A stretch of DNA of 64,000 bases, from the NCBI RefSeq assembly GCF_900115105.1, contig NZ_FOYP01000001.1, positions 381,472 through 445,471 on the forward strand, in the 5' to 3' direction. Under the pieces are notes generated by a model. That model saw nothing but the letters and a program-made list of their open reading frames with translations. It had not been told where the DNA came from and ran no database searches. Below are positions 8,857 through 15,861 of the stretch, piece by piece (position 1 is the stretch's first letter; every line of letters begins with the position of its first letter). The translations under genes were made by a program, and so were the position numbers. Origin of the DNA: Yoonia tamlensis. GTDB lineage: Bacteria; Pseudomonadota; Alphaproteobacteria; Rhodobacterales; Rhodobacteraceae.

Positions 8857-8922
8857 TGTTCGCGCCCGCGCATGCCTTAAGATTGGAAGCAAGACGAAAC
8901 AAGATTGAGAAGGAAAAACAAC

Positions 8923-9354
8923 ATGATTCGTAAACTTGTAGCCGGCCTCGCAGTTTCAGCCCTGATGGGCAGCGCAGCTTTTGCCGAAACATTCGAAGTT
9001 CAAATGCTGAATGTCGGCTCTGACGGCGAGCGCATGGTTTTTGAACCAGCCTTTGTGCACGCAGCCGCCGGTGACACAATCAAGTTTGTCGCCACAGACC
9101 GTGGCCACAACGCCGAACTGAATGACGGGATGTTCCCTGAAGGTGCCGAACAGTTCGCAGGCAGTATCAACGAAGAATTCGAAGTCACACTGGACGTCGA
9201 AGGCGTCTATGGCGTGATCTGCAAACCGCACTTTTCCATGGGGATGGTGATGGTCATCGCAGTCGGTGATGTCGACGCCCCTGACACATTCCTTGAAGGC
9301 CGCGTACCACGTGGCGCCAAGGCCCGCTTTGAGACCCTTCTGGGCAATCTCTAA
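8923..9354 (+). CDS. paz: Pseudoazurin (type 1 copper protein)
   Basis: Periplasmic blue copper protein, 143 residues including a signal peptide (MIRKLVAGLAVSALMGSAAFA). Copper ligands are visible: His in DRGHNAEL, then Cys, His and Met in VICKPHFSMGM with pseudoazurin spacing. It is the likely electron donor for NirK and possibly NorC. The ATG at 8923 was chosen because AGAAGGAAAAAC precedes it. Followed by a GC-rich hairpin and then nirK, with which it may share a transcript. Confidence 0.93.
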   Translation: MIRKLVAGLAVSALMGSAAFAETFEVQMLNVGSDGERMVFEPAFVHAAAGDTIKFVATDRGHNAELNDGMFPEGAEQFAGSINEEFEVTLDVEGVYGVICKPHFSMGMVMVIAVGDVDAPDTFLEGRVPRGAKARFETLLGNL

Positions 9355-9368
9355 CACTTTCCAACTGT

Positions 9369-9387
9369 GCGGGGCATGAGGCCCCGC
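9369..9387 (+). terminator. GC hairpin between pseudoazurin and nirK
   Basis: GCGGGGC-ATGAG-GCCCCGC forms a perfect 7-bp stem with a 5-base loop. No T-run follows, so it is more likely an attenuator or an mRNA-stabilising 3' structure than a full terminator. The nirK ribosome-binding site begins about 15 bases later. Confidence 0.5.
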
Positions 9388-9412
9388 GCGTATCAGTCAC
9401 ATGGAGGAAACC

Positions 9413-10630
9413 ATGGCTAAATTCATCAACCCCGGTCTTATGCCAACCAATCGCCGCAATGTGTTGCGGGGCAGCGTTCTTGCCGGTGCGGCAGCCCTTA
9501 CAGGTTCTGCGGTCAAAGCATCACCGCGCGCACCACGCATCACTGCAATCAATGAAACATCCAAGAACCTTTACCGCGTTGCGGGTCAACAAGAGGCCGA
9601 CAGCACAGCAGAACCAGCCGATCTGTCCGGTTACACACGCGTAAAGCAAGAGCTTGTCGCGCCGCCTTTTGCACCAGTGCATGAACAGGTCGCAACCGGT
9701 GGGCCAAAAATCATCGAGATCACTTTGGAAACAACCGAAGTCTTGATGACTGTGGACGAAGACACCGGCGCAGAAGTCTGGGCGCTTACATACAACGGGT
9801 CTGTGCCCGGTCCGCTAATCATCTGCCATCAGGGCGATATGGTCGAACTGACACTGCGCAACCCTGTCTCTAGCATGATGGAACATAACATCGACTTTCA
9901 CGCATCAACAGGTGCGCTGGGCGGTGGCGGGCTGACCCATGTCTACCCTGGCGAAGAAACTGTGCTGCGCTGGAAAGCAACCAAACCGGGTTGTTTCACC
10001 TATCACTGTGCCCCTGGTGGCGCGATGATCCCCTACCACGTCACCCATGGGATGAACGGCGCGGTAATGGTGCTGCCTCGCGATGGTCTGAAAGACGCCG
10101 ACGGCAACCTGCTGACCTATGACAGCATCGCCTATATCGGCGAACAGGACTACTATTTGCCAAAAGACGAAAACGGCGACTACCGTGTCTACGAAGCAGC
10201 CGGCGATGACTATGCAGACAGCCTCGAAGCCATGCGCGGTTTGATCCCGACCCACTCCGTCTTTAACGGTGCAGTTGGTGCGCTAACAGGTGAAAACGCG
10301 CTCAAGGCGAATGTTGGCGAAACTGTCCTGATGATCCACAATCAGGCGAACCGCGACAGCCGTCCGCACCTGATCGGTGGTCACGGGAATTATGTCTGGG
10401 AGTCTTCTTTCACAGATCCGCCACTGCGTGATATGGAAACCTGGTTTGTGCGCGGCGGGAGCGCTGTCGCAGCGATGTACACATTCGAACAGCCAGGTGT
10501 CTATGCCTACGTCAACCACAACCTGATCGAGGGTGTGTTGCTTGGGGCGACTGCGCATTTTGTCGTCGATGGCAAATGGGACAATAACCTGATGGAACAG
10601 GTCGTCGCCCCGCGTGAATTCGAAACCTAA
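9413..10630 (+). CDS. nirK: Copper-containing nitrite reductase NirK
   Basis: Periplasmic enzyme reducing nitrite to NO, 405 residues. A Tat-type leader is seen ([18 protein letters not shown]). Cupredoxin domain 1 carries the type 1 and type 2 copper ligands in EHNIDFHAS and [21 protein letters not shown]; the domain 2 His is in [13 protein letters not shown]. The ATG at 9413 follows a GGAGG; an in-frame ATG at 9401 overlaps that site and was rejected. The nirK-nirV order is known from Rhodobacter-type denitrifiers. Confidence 0.97.
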
Positions 10631-10647
10631 GTTGAAAGTCTGAAACC

Positions 10648-11388
10648 ATGTTTGCCGCCCTGCGCACTGTCATGTCGAACCGCCGATCAGTCGGGTTTGC
10701 AGTGACAGCTATTGTCGGGGCGGCACTCTTGCTCGGGGCCGCGTATGAATCGCGTGGCCCCGATCTTGCATTTGCCCCTGAAATGGCGCCGAGGGCTGTC
10801 GATCTGCCCGACGGGCGCGCCTTGTTTGTCCAGCGTTACGAGGTCACGGTCGCGGAATGGAACCTTTGCTTTGAACAGGGCGGATGTTCAATGGCGCTGC
10901 GCGCACGCCCTGATCAGGATGCGGCCCTTATTCCGGCAACAGGGCTTAACTACATGGATGTGCAGGAATATGTGCGCTGGTTAAGCGATGTAACCCGCCA
11001 TGAATGGCGTTTGCCAACATCGCAGGAATGGGCATTTATGGCCCGGCCCGTGTTGCCAAAAGAGCCCGACCCGATCTTCACCGATCCGGAACTGTCTTGG
11101 GCGTCCTCCTATCTGGTCGAAGGTCTTTCTTCGCGCGCGCTCATGCCGCAAGGCAGCTTTGCTGCGACCCCCGAAGGGATCAGTGACCTTAGCGGCAGCG
11201 TTTGGGAATGGACCGATGACTGCTATTCGGGCGAAGCCGATACAGGCCGATGCCCTGCCTATTATGTCGGTGGCGAACATGTCGCCGCGGTTCCGTTTCT
11301 GGTGCGTGATCCTGCGCGCGGGGGCTGCGCCGCCGGATCGCCGCCAGCCCATCTTGGCATGCGGCTTGTTACCGACCGCAGCCTTTGA
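10648..11388 (+). CDS. nirV: NirV, formylglycine-generating-enzyme-like protein
   Basis: Protein of 246 residues with an N-terminal membrane anchor or signal (VGFAVTAIVGAALLLGAAYES), followed by an FGE-sulfatase/SUMF1 fold: VQRYEVTVAEWNLCFEQG near the start, WRLPTSQEWAFMAR in the middle, and DLSGSVWEWTDDCYSG later. NirV follows nirK in several denitrifiers; its role is unclear and it was reported dispensable in some strains. It lies 17 bases after nirK, so the two are surely co-transcribed. Confidence 0.88.
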   Translation: MFAALRTVMSNRRSVGFAVTAIVGAALLLGAAYESRGPDLAFAPEMAPRAVDLPDGRALFVQRYEVTVAEWNLCFEQGGCSMALRARPDQDAALIPATGLNYMDVQEYVRWLSDVTRHEWRLPTSQEWAFMARPVLPKEPDPIFTDPELSWASSYLVEGLSSRALMPQGSFAATPEGISDLSGSVWEWTDDCYSGEADTGRCPAYYVGGEHVAAVPFLVRDPARGGCAAGSPPAHLGMRLVTDRSL

Positions 11389-11424: not shown

Positions 11425-12762
11425 CTACGCCACCGGCCAATTCAGGGTAACGCGTAGCCCACCCATCGGCGCCCGCCCAAGCACAAGCGTGCAGCCGTGA
11501 CTTTGCGCCATATCCTGCACAATACTAAGCCCGAGCCCCGTGCCCGGTTTATCGGCATCAAGACGGCCGCCACGTTCAAGCACAGTTGCGCGCGCGGCCT
11601 CCGGTATGCCCGGACCATCATCATCGACCGTCAGAAATGCAGCGCCATCGGATTGCGCCGCGCGGATAGTAATCTGGGTATCGGCCCATTTTACAGCGTT
11701 ATCAAACAGATTGCCCAAAAGTTCGGTCAGGTCGAATTCATCAAAGGGCGCGCGCATCTGCGCGGCAACGTCGATTTTCCAGCTGATATGATCGACACCA
11801 GGCTGACGGCCGAGCGCGTCTTGAAGACGCTTCGCGATGGGCAAGATTGCGCTGCGTTGCTTGCTTTGGTGGCTGTCGCGGCTGCGGGCAAGTTCGCGTT
11901 CAACAATATAGGCGATGCTTGCGGCTTCATTGTGCAATTCATCGGCAATCACATCTTGCGCCGCGTGGCGTAGCTTGCGTTCGATCCCGTGGATAATTGT
12001 CAGCGGGGTCTTGATCCCATGCGCGAGGTTCGCCGCCCCCGCGCGCACACGCGCCAGCGTCGCGTCATTGGTATCAAGCAACTGGTTCACCTCATCGGCA
12101 AGCGGCAGAATTTCATCAGGATAGTCTTGCGACAGCCGGTCGGTAGCTGAATTGCGGATGCGTGCAAGATCGGCGCGCACCTTATCCAAAGGTTTGAGCC
12201 CCAGACGCACCTGAACCCAGCTTGCCATTAGCAACAGTGCGCCCAGAAGCGTCAGCGCGATGGCCGAGTTTGTGAAAAAACCCGCAACCGATGCATCAAG
12301 TCCGGTCCGGTCGATCGCGACGGCCAGAAATACCTTTTGGCGCGTGTCATCCGCGCCTGTTGTGATCACCCAGCTTGCCACAGCGACCGTTTCGCCCGTG
12401 CCCATCGTGACGTTTTCATAGGTGATGTGACCAGCTGTCAGGGGCGGATCAAGCGCCAGCGGTGCCGCCCAGAACGATGGCGATAGAATGGGCGGGTCAT
12501 CATCTATCTGGATCTGCCAGAAATAGCCGGAGAGCGCCTGTTCGAAACGCGGATCCGCCAGCGGCGCAACCACGACTTCGCCTTGCGCGTCGACGCCCAC
12601 ATTCGCGCTCAGCACCAAAAGATAGGCCTCCAGCTCGGCGTTGACGCGTTCCTCGAAATACATGCGAAACAAGAAATTCAGCACAAAGGCGGTCGCAATC
12701 AGGCCAAGCACCGTTGTCACGGTGGCCGCCCATATCAGGCGCAGGCTAAGCGAAGATTTCAC
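11425..12762 (-). CDS. Two-component sensor histidine kinase
   Basis: Inner-membrane kinase of 445 residues with two membrane helices (about 8-30 and 160-185) flanking a periplasmic sensor domain, a HAMP-like linker, an H box (ANLAHGIKTPLT), an N box (ELLGNLFDNAVKWA) and G boxes (DDDGPGIP, GTGLGLSIVQD). The start is GTG and overlaps the response-regulator stop by four bases, so the pair is coupled. Similar in layout to PhoQ/FeuQ-type kinases; the signal is unknown. Next to a PepSY protein, which may be a target or a sensor accessory. Confidence 0.92.
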   Translation of the reverse strand: MKSSLSLRLIWAATVTTVLGLIATAFVLNFLFRMYFEERVNAELEAYLLVLSANVGVDAQGEVVVAPLADPRFEQALSGYFWQIQIDDDPPILSPSFWAAPLALDPPLTAGHITYENVTMGTGETVAVASWVITTGADDTRQKVFLAVAIDRTGLDASVAGFFTNSAIALTLLGALLLMASWVQVRLGLKPLDKVRADLARIRNSATDRLSQDYPDEILPLADEVNQLLDTNDATLARVRAGAANLAHGIKTPLTIIHGIERKLRHAAQDVIADELHNEAASIAYIVERELARSRDSHQSKQRSAILPIAKRLQDALGRQPGVDHISWKIDVAAQMRAPFDEFDLTELLGNLFDNAVKWADTQITIRAAQSDGAAFLTVDDDGPGIPEAARATVLERGGRLDADKPGTGLGLSIVQDMAQSHGCTLVLGRAPMGGLRVTLNWPVA

Positions 12763-13424
12763 GGATTATCCTCGGCAATTATATAGCCAAAGCCGCGGCG
12801 CGTCTGGATGATATCGCCCCCGATTTTCCGGCGCAGTCGGCCGACCAATACCTCTACGGCGTTGCTGTCAGGGGCCTGATCGCGAAAATAGATGTTTTCC
12901 ACCAGTTCTTCCTGCCCGATGACCTGCCCGCGGTTGTGCATCAGGTAGTTCAGCAACCGGTATTCAAGCGGGGTGATCTTTATCGGGCGCCCGTCCATTG
13001 ATACCCGCATCTGGCGCAGGTCCACCCGCAATGGTCCCGCCGTCAGCGTTGTTGTTTTCTGCCCCTGTGTTCTGCGCAGCAAGGCGCGCAGACGCGCGAC
13101 AAGTTCTTCCATCTGGAACGGTTTTCCCAAATAATCATCGGCGCCCGCATCAATGCCTGCGACGCGTTCGTTCCAGTTCACGCGGGCGGTCAACAAAATG
13201 ACGGGCAGCGCAAGGCCCTCGTCACGCCAGTTACGCAACACCGAAAGCCCGTCACGCTTGGGCAGTCCGACATCAAGAATGGCCGCGGCGTATTTTTCGG
13301 TGCTGCCCAGAAACCAGCCTTGCTCGCCGTCGGTGGCGATTTCGGGGATCATCCCTTCAGCGGCTAGCACATCTGCAATCAGTTCTGCGATCTTGGGTTC
13401 GTCTTCGACAATTAATATTCGCAT
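12759..13424 (-). CDS. OmpR/PhoP-family response regulator
   Basis: 221 residues: receiver domain with acidic pocket (VEDEP near residue 7), phospho-acceptor Asp in ILDVGLPKRDG, switch Thr in LLTARV and Lys in DDYLGKPF; then a winged-helix DNA-binding domain (ITPLEYRLLNYLMHNRGQVIGQEEL...VEVLVGRLRRKIG). Partner of the adjacent kinase. The PepSY protein gene stops immediately before this ATG with no gap, so all three may form one transcript. Confidence 0.94.
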   Translation of the reverse strand: MRILIVEDEPKIAELIADVLAAEGMIPEIATDGEQGWFLGSTEKYAAAILDVGLPKRDGLSVLRNWRDEGLALPVILLTARVNWNERVAGIDAGADDYLGKPFQMEELVARLRALLRRTQGQKTTTLTAGPLRVDLRQMRVSMDGRPIKITPLEYRLLNYLMHNRGQVIGQEELVENIYFRDQAPDSNAVEVLVGRLRRKIGGDIIQTRRGFGYIIAEDNP

Positions 13425-13958
13425 CTAACAGTTCTGCACATTGGTTATCTGACCCGATCCAGCGTCAACCGTGACCGAAATAATCGCGCCACGGCTGTTT
13501 ACAATCACAACCCGATAGGCGGGGCGGCCAGCGTTTGGCGCATAGCCAACCCGCAAAAGTTGACCGGGATGCTGGCTTTGTACATTTGTCAGAACCTCGC
13601 GCAGCGGGCGGGCATCGCCACGCGCAATTGCGGCTTGGGCCTCGGCGTATTCGGCGCGCGTGATCTGGCCGCCGTTGAGCAGCGGCGGGTGCTGGCATGA
13701 TCCGGCACTGCTTGGCCCGCTTGCACGCGTCGGGCTTGGCTGCGATGGACCGCTTGGGGTACTGGGAGGTGTCGGCGGGCTTGGTGCAGTGGGGTCCGAA
13801 GCGGGGCTCGGGTTGCTCGCTGCGCTTGGCGCTGTCGCGCTCGAGGCGGCATGTGCCTTGCTGAGCCCCAAGAATGCGGGCGACATATATGCGGCGGCTG
13901 TCCCCAACCCAAGACGGGCAAGCGCGGCACGGCGTGTGATGTGGTGGTCTTTGGTCAT
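13425..13958 (-). CDS. Tat-exported Ser/Pro-rich protein with C-terminal PepSY domain
   Basis: 177 residues in three parts. Residues 1-35 are a twin-arginine leader (HITRRAALARLGLGTAAAYM) ending in AHA/ASS. Residues 36-90 are a Ser/Pro/Ala linker with many SxPS motifs. Residues 95-177 form a PepSY-like domain (LREVLTNVQSQHPGQLLRVG, then YRVVIVNSRGAIISVTVDAG) with a terminal Cys. The start overlaps the stop of the kinase-like gene by four bases. The leader closely resembles that of the second Ser-rich protein at 15317. PepSY domains bind metals or inhibit peptidases elsewhere; the function here is unknown. Confidence 0.82.
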   Translation of the reverse strand: MTKDHHITRRAALARLGLGTAAAYMSPAFLGLSKAHAASSATAPSAASNPSPASDPTAPSPPTPPSTPSGPSQPSPTRASGPSSAGSCQHPPLLNGGQITRAEYAEAQAAIARGDARPLREVLTNVQSQHPGQLLRVGYAPNAGRPAYRVVIVNSRGAIISVTVDAGSGQITNVQNC

Positions 13959-15193
13959 GACGCCCTGGCCCTGGCGCTGTGTGGCACAACAAGCCGCGCA
14001 GCAACAAGCTGGCGCAAAAGCGTCTCGCAATCGGAGGCAATTTGCACTGGATCGGCATCCACGAAGGCGGCAGTCAGGATTTCGATGATTTCTGCAAGGC
14101 TGGCTGGTTTTGCAAGTACACGCCAGATTGCCACCGAACCGGCATTCATCCGGAATATAGCCAAGCCGTTGCCATCTGCCAGAAAATGATCTTCGCCGAC
14201 TTGCGTGGCCGTGACCGCTTGGGCCTGCATGTAGCGCGCAGCGGGCATAAATTCGGGCGCGGGTTGCTGTTGGCGATCCAATGGCGCGCGGCTGGCTTGG
14301 GTCGGCAGCCGCGTGCTGACGGCTGCGGGAAGCCCGTCGAATGCGCTGTGGCCGGACAAATAGGCGGCGGCCTGTTCGGCGCAATGATAAGTCAACCGGA
14401 ACACCGGTAGATCGGCGACCAGCGCACCCAAGGTTGCAAGAATATCGCCTGATAACTGGGTGCGCGCGAAATTCTGGGTAATCAGGCGGGTCAGGGCATC
14501 TTCGCGTGAGATCGGTGCAAGCTGTGGCGCAACTTCGGATTCGCTGCGGTCAAGCACCACCATCGCGCCCATCGGCATTGTTGTGCCATGTGCGGCAATC
14601 GGGGTGCCGCAGATATATTTATACTGGTCGTTTGACGGACCCGCGTCTTTTGTAACCCAATCTATGAATCCGGCGCTAAAGCTTTCGGGCAGCGGCAGGC
14701 GCACCCGCGCGATCGCGCCGTTTGCAATGCCACTGAATTCATGCGTGTCAGGCGTTATGCGCATTGGCAGATAGTCATCGGTAAACAACTGGTGCCCCTG
14801 CCGCCCTAAGGCCACAGCAAGGGTTGATTTTCCGGCGCGGCGCACATCGGGAAAAACGACCAGTCGCCCGGAAAATGCAACAGCAGCCGCATGCAGACAC
14901 AAAAGCGCCGGATCACTGCGCAGCCGTTCCCACGCCATTTCCGCAAGCAGGTCGCAAATTGCGTTGACCGCATCCCAAATGCGCGGTTTTGCACCTGTCT
15001 GCGCAAGCTGGAGTTCCCATTGACCGGCGGCAAGCGGCCGCAAGCAAACAAATGCCGAAATGGTGCTATGGTGGCTTGTCCGGTATGGCCAACCAGCAAG
15101 GACATCCGCAATGATTGGCATCAACGCGGCCGCATCTGTCAGTGCTACGGGATGCGCAAGCCCTTCAAAATGCAAAAATACGGTTTCAGTCAC
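13955..15193 (-). CDS. HPr-kinase-like protein fused to a PqqD-like domain
   Basis: 412 residues. The central part looks like HPr kinase-related ATPases: LCLHAAAVAFSGRLVVFPD, a P-loop-like RRAGKSTLAVALGRQGHQLFTDDYLPM, then a long C-lobe. The P-loop is unusual because the first Gly of GxxxxGKS is Asp. The last 90 residues (HFLADGNGLAIFRMNAGSVA, then LAEIIEILTAAF) resemble PqqD, a peptide chaperone of RiPP pathways. The GTG start at 15193 follows AAGGA; an in-frame ATG at 15250 is possible. Related kinase/PqqD systems have been named HPr-rel-A in protein family databases; I recall this only generally. Confidence 0.75.
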   Translation of the reverse strand: MTETVFLHFEGLAHPVALTDAAALMPIIADVLAGWPYRTSHHSTISAFVCLRPLAAGQWELQLAQTGAKPRIWDAVNAICDLLAEMAWERLRSDPALLCLHAAAVAFSGRLVVFPDVRRAGKSTLAVALGRQGHQLFTDDYLPMRITPDTHEFSGIANGAIARVRLPLPESFSAGFIDWVTKDAGPSNDQYKYICGTPIAAHGTTMPMGAMVVLDRSESEVAPQLAPISREDALTRLITQNFARTQLSGDILATLGALVADLPVFRLTYHCAEQAAAYLSGHSAFDGLPAAVSTRLPTQASRAPLDRQQQPAPEFMPAARYMQAQAVTATQVGEDHFLADGNGLAIFRMNAGSVAIWRVLAKPASLAEIIEILTAAFVDADPVQIASDCETLLRQLVAARLVVPHSARARAS

Positions 15194-15316
15194 GAGGCGT
15201 CCTTGTCGGTTACGCGCAAGACTAGCAAAAAAGCGGCCACACGTCAGCATAATTGCCCTGACTGCGCTGTTTCGTGCAGTCAGAGCGTACCAGCGTGCGG
15301 CCTAATGCGCGCAGGG

Positions 15317-15700
15317 TTAGGACAGGCCAACGCACCGCATTGTGCCGTCGGTTTCATTGACCTCGACTTGGCCGCCTGCCGCTTCACATTGTTCGGGCGT
15401 CATGACTTGTGGCCCGCTTGGCCCGCTGGAAACCGATGCGCCGCTTGGGCTGGAAACGCCACTTGCGCCTGATGCACTGCTCGCACCTGATGAACCGCTT
15501 GCACCTGATGCACTGCTCGCGCCTGATGAACCGCTGGCACCTGATGTGCCGCTCGGGCTGGATGCATTGCTGGCAGATGATGCCGCATGCGCTGCAGAAA
15601 GCGTTGTAAACGCAGGCACCGTATAGGCCGCAATTGCGACCCCGCCGATCCGTGCGAGCGCCTTGCGGCGTGAAAGTTTGTTGTCGTTCTCGATGGTCAT
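15317..15700 (-). CDS. Tat-exported Ser/Gly/Ala-repeat protein
   Basis: 127 residues: a twin-arginine leader (KLSRRKALARIGGVAIAAYT) ending AHA/ASS, then about 55 residues of SGASSA-type repeats, then a short Cys-containing tail (VMTPEQCEAAGGQVE and MRCVGLS). The ATG at 15700 follows GAGGGG. The leader shares the arrangement RRxALAR-G-AAY-PAF-LS-AHAASSA with the PepSY protein at 13425. It is 124 bases upstream of the kinase-like gene and may be its substrate; that is inference. Confidence 0.75.
   Translation of the reverse strand: MTIENDNKLSRRKALARIGGVAIAAYTVPAFTTLSAAHAASSASNASSPSGTSGASGSSGASSASGASGSSGASSASGASGVSSPSGASVSSGPSGPQVMTPEQCEAAGGQVEVNETDGTMRCVGLS
15465..15554 (-). repeat. Five 18-bp tandem repeats in the Ser-rich gene
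   Basis: Five consecutive 18-base units of the type gcacctgatgaaccgctt alternate between a GCACTG and an ACCG variant, giving a 36-base higher order. Each unit codes for six residues of the SGASSA pattern. Such repeats expand and contract easily, so the length of the Ser-rich region may vary between strains. Confidence 0.85.
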
Positions 15701-15861
15701 ATGCTGTTCCCCTCTCAAATTATGCGGCACTGAAACTTGCCCGCTAAATGATCTAGCGCAGACCGGCGTGCAGCGCCCTGAACCTGAATGTCAGCGGATT
15801 GTCAGCTTTGTGAACGGGCACCGCGCATCTGTCGGCGCCCGTCTGTCGTGATTTGCGCAAC

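Follow-up and report, generated by a model that had tools for sequence, protein, structure and literature searches.

A five-gene operon on the minus strand (15700..11425) of a 64,000-nucleotide stretch of the Yoonia tamlensis genome, which we refer to as the window, probably encodes a guided protein-serine kinase together with its exported substrates. The guide would be a recognition element of the type used in the biosynthesis of ribosomally synthesized and post-translationally modified peptides (RiPPs), the RiPP recognition element (RRE). Open reading frame (ORF) calls and domain searches give the gene order as a Ser-repeat protein with a signal peptide of the twin-arginine translocation (Tat) type, a kinase-RRE fusion, a Ser-rich PepSY protein, a response regulator and a histidine kinase (Table 1). 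Our evidence comes from comparison, and covers the leader motif, the type of RRE, conserved active-site residues, co-occurrence, the spacing of serines and a direct-repeat box. From these we infer binding, phosphotransfer, the order of events, the Tat route and regulation, in the following scheme.

The C-terminal RRE of the kinase would bind YxxPx(F/L/M) in both signal peptides while the substrates are still cytoplasmic. Using ATP, the HprK/PEPCK-fold domain would phosphorylate serines of the neighbouring Ser-x-x tract, a step that most likely precedes export. The modified protein would then be exported, probably by Tat, with cleavage of the leader behind AxA. Payloads with the same tag would be the PepSY protein and, in two other genomes, a subtilase. 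Finally, the sensor kinase would cue the response regulator, and the operon would be switched on through CTGACA direct repeats.

Leader motif and recognition domain

A homologue search returned 73 proteins, including that of the window, the others being 29-63% identical over the aligned part. Flanking sequence was available for 64 loci, which by record title come mostly from Rhodobacteraceae or its genera, with some unassigned metagenome-assembled genomes. Two weak Chloroflexi-type loci were left out, and kinases were kept if they scored at least 60 bits (this excludes L064, L065 and L089-L095). With genomes of the window's family added and duplicates removed, the set comprises 78 loci including the window. 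Locus L088, where the kinase reads as two overlapping pieces, has an apparently intact Ser-repeat gene upstream.

Directly upstream of the kinase, a script searching for [YW]xxPx[LVIAFYM] and blind to serine found a twin-arginine protein with the motif at 73 of the 78 loci, always with an RR-to-Tyr distance of 15 and with AxA at the same place. Three of the loci it missed (L019, L027 and L082) have the motif by eye, the misses being start-codon or filter effects, and L060 starts at the kinase on a contig edge; overall, the motif is present at 76 of 77 assessable loci. The sequence-only reading had named, as the case that would tell against its idea, kinase homologues that never occur with Ser-rich Tat proteins. 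This case did not occur, as the same 76 loci have such a protein directly upstream.

We call these leaders Tat-type on the basis of SRR/TRR, a hydrophobic stretch and AxA. All 71 distinct upstream leaders (from upstream proteins with at least eight serines, selected for YxxP only) have RR, the hydrophobic stretch and AxA; the RR-to-Tyr distance is 15 throughout, F, L, M or V occupies position +5, and AxA falls at +11/+13. The aromatic residue is Tyr in all 71 and never Trp, as expected because the RRE carries Asp. Downstream of the kinase, 34 of 34 PepSY-type proteins carry the motif; these proteins were selected for their resemblance to the full-length PepSY protein of the window with its leader. 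The motif was absent from ordinary Tat signals of related genomes (0 of 28 readable among 30 fetched, several of them mutual orthologues) and from other Tat signals in the flanks (0 of 5). Both window motifs, YTVPAF and YMSPAF, sit within the hydrophobic part of the signal peptide. Leaders of the form [Y/W]xxPx(hydrophobic) are recognised by the RREs of lasso peptides and of linear polyphosphorylated peptides (LPPs) (PMC13381572).

What kind of RRE is fused to the kinase? The Pfam PqqD model PF05402 matches the domain at 42.8 bits (cut-off 23.4), and the model for PqqD of PQQ biosynthesis, TIGR03859, reaches 15.4 bits, below its cut-off of 46. A profile of the RRE searched against the PDB matches TbiB1 (5v1u, E 2.9e-7) best, followed by 9x90 (1.2e-4), 9x8z (1.4e-4) and TfuB1 (6jx3, 0.0039); the true PqqD 3g2b is weaker (0.12). 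Single-sequence phmmer searches of the PDB with the kinase, and with the RRE alone, gave nothing useful. The entries 9x90 and 9x8z are PqqD-family chaperones, which from residue spacing we take to be PbaB1 and LppB, respectively: D, F, M and L at positions 70, 74, 78 and 83 of 9x8z fit the spacing of the LppB residues named in PMC13381572. There, an Asp of LppB hydrogen-bonds the leader Tyr and an Asn fixes the Pro kink (PMC13381572). The residue D388 of the operon kinase aligns with this Asp and is kept in 60 of 61 kinases, N350 aligns with the Asn (56 of 61) and L401 with the Leu of 9x8z (60 of 61). Judged by its sequence, the fused domain resembles the leader-binding RREs of lasso and LPP systems more than true PqqD, and D388 is a candidate contact to the leader Tyr.

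In a structural model of a read-through fusion of the Ser-repeat and kinase genes of the window, leader residues 31-36 become a strand, and in solved RRE complexes the corresponding part of the leader pairs with the RRE. This model used alignment A5, as A4 misplaced the precursors. The proposal of the sequence-only reading that PqqD holds the leader is strongly supported by the motif, the RRE profile, the contact residues and the co-occurrence of motif and RRE, including discrete RREs; we consider it very likely that the RRE binds the leader of the Ser-rich proteins.

Discrete RREs were found beyond the window's family. A survey of 337 alphaproteobacterial genomes located related kinases at 24 loci, spread over 22 genomes; 12 of these loci have a Tat-YxxP gene near the kinase. 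Among these 12, the RRE is fused in four, encoded by a discrete gene after the kinase in five, and discrete but 27-30 kb away in three. The other 12 have no Tat-YxxP leader within about 1.5 kb, and most have a discrete RRE. At L257-L259 the discrete RRE lies beside genes that by eye are HlyD-like and ABC-transporter-like, and possibly serves another system. Within the window's family, three loci have a short kinase without an RRE, and there the exported Ser-rich proteins carry no YxxP; an RRE match is altogether absent from two of these genomes, and the match in the third is weak and unlinked. A stricter rule drawn from these three loci, that absence of the RRE always means absence of YxxP, is contradicted by three genomes where YxxP leaders occur although the kinase has no adjacent RRE. 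The RRE-less loci keep the kinase residues and an exported Ser-rich protein, which suggests that the core of the system is the kinase with an exported Ser-bearing protein. On these comparisons, the leader motif follows the RRE, be it fused or discrete.

Leader and kinase also travel together at the level of genomes. Of 295 genomes in the window's family, 23 have a strong kinase (E < 1e-40), weaker P-loop matches being set aside. The leader profile matches in 24 (E < 1e-7), among them all 23 with the kinase (Fisher p 2e-33, with the 24th counted against). This 24th genome (G196, 64% complete) has an N-terminal kinase fragment (E 4e-7) beside the leader. Weaker leader-profile matches in eight kinase-less genomes (E 1.8e-5 to 8e-4) were rejected: of the six inspected, four are ordinary Tat signals without the Tyr and two have no clear signal. 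Two weak matches in kinase-bearing genomes (G206:C6 and G241:C7:1457962) were likewise no YxxP Tat genes.

The leader may mark substrates both in cis and in trans. Two genomes encode subtilases (PF00082, 105.6 and 85.5 bits; L211:1520-2836 and L212:1154-2536) that bear this Tat-YxxP leader and also have a Ser/Gly-rich stretch, one of them two genes upstream of the kinase and the other on a different contig.

Kinase domain, serine tracts and rival explanations

The kinase-like part of the fusion has no Pfam match at E <= 1, including the Hpr_kinase domains. Its predicted fold (predicted local distance difference test (pLDDT) score 89.9) matches structures of PEPCK and HPr kinase; only residues 1-335 are well matched, therefore the RRE part was judged from sequence. 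H101, K122, D139 and D140 are invariant in 61 of 61 kinases, and are kept in the three RRE-less relatives. A His-Lys-Asp-Asp set is essential in the lasso-tailoring Ser kinases PadeK, ThcoK and SyanK (PMC9266682); we equated the residues by their position around the P-loop, without direct alignment to PadeK or ThcoK. From the fold and these residues we infer phosphorylation, and the operon kinase is likely to be active as a kinase.

The sequence-only reading had filed the protein with HPr-rel-A. This does not hold: the score against TIGR04352 (HprK_rel_A) is 44.9 bits for a cut-off of 200, a remote similarity around the P-loop, and none of 30 HprK_rel_A loci, fetched from 50 genomes above the cut-off, has a Ser-repeat protein within 1.5 kb (4 of the 30 end early at contig ends). 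Sources currently name the family 'PqqD family protein', 'PqqD family peptide modification chaperone' or 'hypothetical protein'. Elsewhere in the window's own genome (L261:701-2599, C7:683642 region), a 632-residue ORF joins a second HprK-like P-loop domain to what by eye is an apparent glycosyltransferase.

The serines of the exported proteins are regularly spaced. In 62 upstream tracts there are 906 Ser-Ser pairs at lag 3, compared with 527 +- 13 in shuffles, and 809 at lag 6, compared with 495 +- 13; lags 1, 2, 4, 5, 7 and 8 fall below the shuffles. Likewise, 21 PepSY tracts have 219 pairs at lag 3 against 117 +- 7, a further 3 of 24 being too short for the periodicity test. Taken individually, 48 of 62 upstream and 15 of 21 PepSY tracts are significantly periodic. 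The residues between the serines vary (Ala, Gly, Pro, Glu, Arg). The 19 in-phase serines of the window use 10 AGY and 9 TCN codons, which indicates more than an in-frame reading of a DNA repeat, and both codon types (at least two of each) are mixed in the main phase of 72 of 96 tracts, which disfavours DNA slippage as the source of the repeats. Selection therefore appears to keep a Ser at every third residue. Pairwise Ser retention between orthologues was uninformative, with three gapless pairs only.

Could the tracts be ordinary low-complexity linkers, with genes that merely co-travel and a kinase that acts elsewhere? Ser- and Gly-rich linkers are common, and the composition of the tracts varies widely. 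Even so, the co-occurrence of kinase and leader across genomes, the leader motif that accompanies the RRE, the phase of serines in mixed codons, and the lack of Ser-repeat proteins beside HprK_rel_A kinases make this highly improbable.

Several observations weigh against an RRE-guided kinase with exported substrates. The upstream protein of L061 keeps its signal and Ser tract and has lost the motif Tyr; G041, with one weak unlinked RRE match, has a Ser-repeat gene without a YxxP leader; and three genomes of one genus have their sole RRE match near transporter genes, 27-30 kb away from the kinase. The leader strand of the fusion model has a local pLDDT of about 52-64 and its partner is not visible in the model output. 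Neither exported protein was reported by the NCBIfam Tat model TIGR01409 at E <= 1, and the Ser-rich proteins may be exported by Sec. Of the upstream tracts, 12 of 74 had insufficient length for the test, and 14 of the 62 tested show no individual periodicity at p < 0.05. Some cores in other Alphaproteobacteria have one or few serines (L246, L247), thus the wider family can do without long arrays. Finally, the P-loop (GKS in PDVRRAGKST) is missing the first Walker-A glycine; two arginines precede GKS in 58 and 60 of 61 kinases.

The missing glycine would suit a non-catalytic chaperone, which would keep the signal peptide bound to its RRE and P-loop domain up to the time of export, in the manner of the redox-enzyme-maturation proofreaders of Tat substrates. 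The match of RRE to leader and the position of the motif within the hydrophobic region would fit such a role too. We regard it as improbable given that the His-Lys-Asp-Asp residues are invariant, also in relatives that have no RRE, and that an exported Ser-rich protein is retained where a locus has neither RRE nor motif.

The Ser-poor cores bear on another possibility, that the HprK-fold enzyme makes a different modification (phosphate chains on one Ser, or nucleotidyl transfer) or phosphorylates only one Ser near the cleavage site, with the tract as a spacer. Lasso and LPP kinases do place several phosphates on a single Ser (PMC13381572, PMC9266682). In the window's family the period of three is strongly retained in mixed codons, and we think this possibility unlikely, though of some weight.

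Returning to phosphorylation of the tract, it is possible, at somewhat short of an even chance, that the system is a general protein-tagging device. Here a Tat-YxxP leader and a Ser-x-x array would direct poly-phosphorylation in the cytoplasm, export of the folded protein, and display of a one-faced phosphoserine polyanion at the envelope, and the linked two-component system would sense the state of this polyanion; the payloads, proposed at the same tentative level, would be a small Cys-bearing protein, the PepSY protein and the subtilase. That the phosphorylated proteins form a cation-binding polyanion at the envelope is a guess.

Operon layout and two-component control

A fusion of kinase and PqqD, two Ser-rich exported proteins, one of them with PepSY, and a two-component system had been noticed by the sequence-only reading, and ORFs and Pfam bear this out; its range of 12759..15700 leaves out the histidine kinase gene. 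It had also described overlaps tying the kinase, PepSY and response regulator genes together. The kinase and PepSY genes do overlap by 4 bases, as do the two regulatory genes, whereas the PepSY and response regulator genes abut with zero overlap. The second Ser-rich protein matches PepSY (PF03413) at 27.3 bits (cut-off 24), and the two-component pair has response regulator and HATPase domains above their Pfam cut-offs. The kinase ORF could start at an ATG at 15250 (431 residues), and the lengths of homologues favour a GTG at 15193 (412 residues).

Table 1. Coordinates of the operon and its features within the window.
Feature	Position	Strand	Basis
Ser-repeat exported protein, 127 aa	15317..15700	-	counterpart upstream of kinase in 76/77 assessable loci
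Leader / Tat-type signal peptide of Ser-repeat protein, aa 1-39	15584..15700	-	leader comparison
YTVPAF, YxxPx(hydrophobic) candidate RRE-recognition motif, Ser-repeat protein aa 26-31	15608..15625	-	leader comparison
Ser-every-third-residue tract, aa 40-97, proposed phosphorylation region	15410..15583	-	Ser spacing and codon tests
HprK-like kinase fused to RRE/PqqD domain, 412 aa	13955..15193	-	profile, fold, residue conservation
P-loop PDVRRAGKST, kinase aa 115-124	14822..14851	-	G121, K122 and S123 in 61/61
RRE domain, kinase about aa 320-405, with D388 and N350	13979..14236	-	Pfam, profile, conservation
Second Tat-type Ser/Pro-rich protein, PepSY at C-terminal end, 177 aa	13425..13958	-	ORF and Pfam
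YMSPAF motif, PepSY protein leader aa 24-29	13872..13889	-	motif in 34/34 PepSY-type proteins downstream of kinase
PepSY domain	13437..13598	-	Pfam
OmpR-family response regulator	12759..13424	-	domain searches
Sensor histidine kinase	11425..12762	-	domain searches
Direct-repeat box CTGACA-N5-CTGACA-N6-TTCAG, likely response-regulator site	15778..15805	-	tracks two-component genes

The operon is built from modules. Only the Ser-repeat gene and the kinase were recognised at 44 of the 78 loci, where some contigs end early; 33 add the PepSY protein, response regulator and histidine kinase, and one has PepSY without regulator genes. At L023, L026, L050 and L157 a PepSY_TM-like membrane protein directly follows the kinase, replacing the Tat-PepSY protein (the PepSY_TM Pfam score is above the cut-off for L023 and just below it for L157).

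A direct-repeat box precedes the Ser-repeat gene, in most cases 105-113 bases before its start (range 89-131). It reads CTGACA-N5-CTGACA, and TTCAG or GTAAG usually comes 6-8 bases later. In relaxed form (the first two repeats) it is present at 32 of 33 loci with two-component genes and at 2 of 40 without; the strict pattern gives 21 of 33 and 2 of 40. The two exceptions without two-component genes are L063, where the contig ends after the kinase, and L073, with a foreign-looking ORF after the PepSY gene. Elsewhere, 2067 kb of strand hold five relaxed sites. That the box tracks the two-component genes and is rare elsewhere is good evidence, at the level of sequence, that the response regulator controls the operon. 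A promoter and terminator scan performed no better than on shuffles. A separate CTGACA-type direct repeat lies immediately before a second two-component pair (L007:1033-3124), a hint of a paralogous regulon.

Next to the operon, on the plus strand (8905-11388), lie genes for a Copper-bind protein, multicopper oxidase domains and an FGE-sulfatase-like protein, which we take to be pseudoazurin, Cu-type nitrite reductase and a NirV-like protein. Beside 14 distinct loci there are ptsP-like genes on the opposite strand, which we assume to be chromosomal context.

Known systems and significance

The closest likeness is to the LPPs (PMC13381572, Nat Commun 2026), which share the HprK-like kinase, the PqqD-type RRE and the YxxPx leader, as well as Ser phosphorylation (proposed for the operon) of a linear precursor with a conserved leader and a variable core. 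However, the RRE of LPP systems is discrete and here it is fused to the kinase, and their leaders are cut by a SipW-like peptidase whereas the leader here is a Tat-type signal peptide (PMC13381572). LPP clusters, described from Bacillota, include a nucleoside triphosphate (NTP) transferase and an MsbA-like transporter (PMC13381572); by Pfam, neither of these nor a SipW-like peptidase is among the five operon proteins. The operon, in contrast, has Ser-x-x array cores with protein payloads and is followed by a two-component system.

The lasso kinases PadeK, ThcoK and SyanK are also HprK-like Ser kinases with the His-Lys-Asp-Asp residues, and phosphorylate their precursor before maturation, but their target is the C-terminal Ser of the lasso precursor (PMC9266682). 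A macrolactam synthetase (the lasso cyclase) and a B2 peptidase are not among the five operon proteins in Pfam searches. To HPr kinase/phosphorylase and PEPCK the similarity is one of fold only, since the operon kinase has an added N-terminal part and the RRE, and no HPr gene is among the five.

Leader and RRE are both recognisable by sequence, and with a core modified as proposed this would be a RiPP-style system in the broad sense. On the comparisons made here it is related to lasso and LPP tailoring, and differs by its Tat-type leader and by repeat proteins and enzymes as the apparent substrates; in a good third of the loci it has what appears to be its own two-component control. We found no account of this operon system in the open-access literature that was searched. 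To our knowledge, there are hardly any examples of a dedicated bacterial kinase that makes exported phosphoproteins, and the known cases of RRE-guided modification concern peptides rather than exported proteins carrying an enzyme or PepSY payload.

If the proposal is true, YxxPx in a Tat-type signal would be enough to predict substrates across a whole genome, both in cis and in trans, and a family now called PqqD family or hypothetical would gain a function. RiPP recognition, HprK-like kinases and Tat export would be joined in a two-gene minimal system that is easily expressed. In marine bacteria of the Roseobacter group, modification machinery in the style of natural products would have been turned to secreted proteins.

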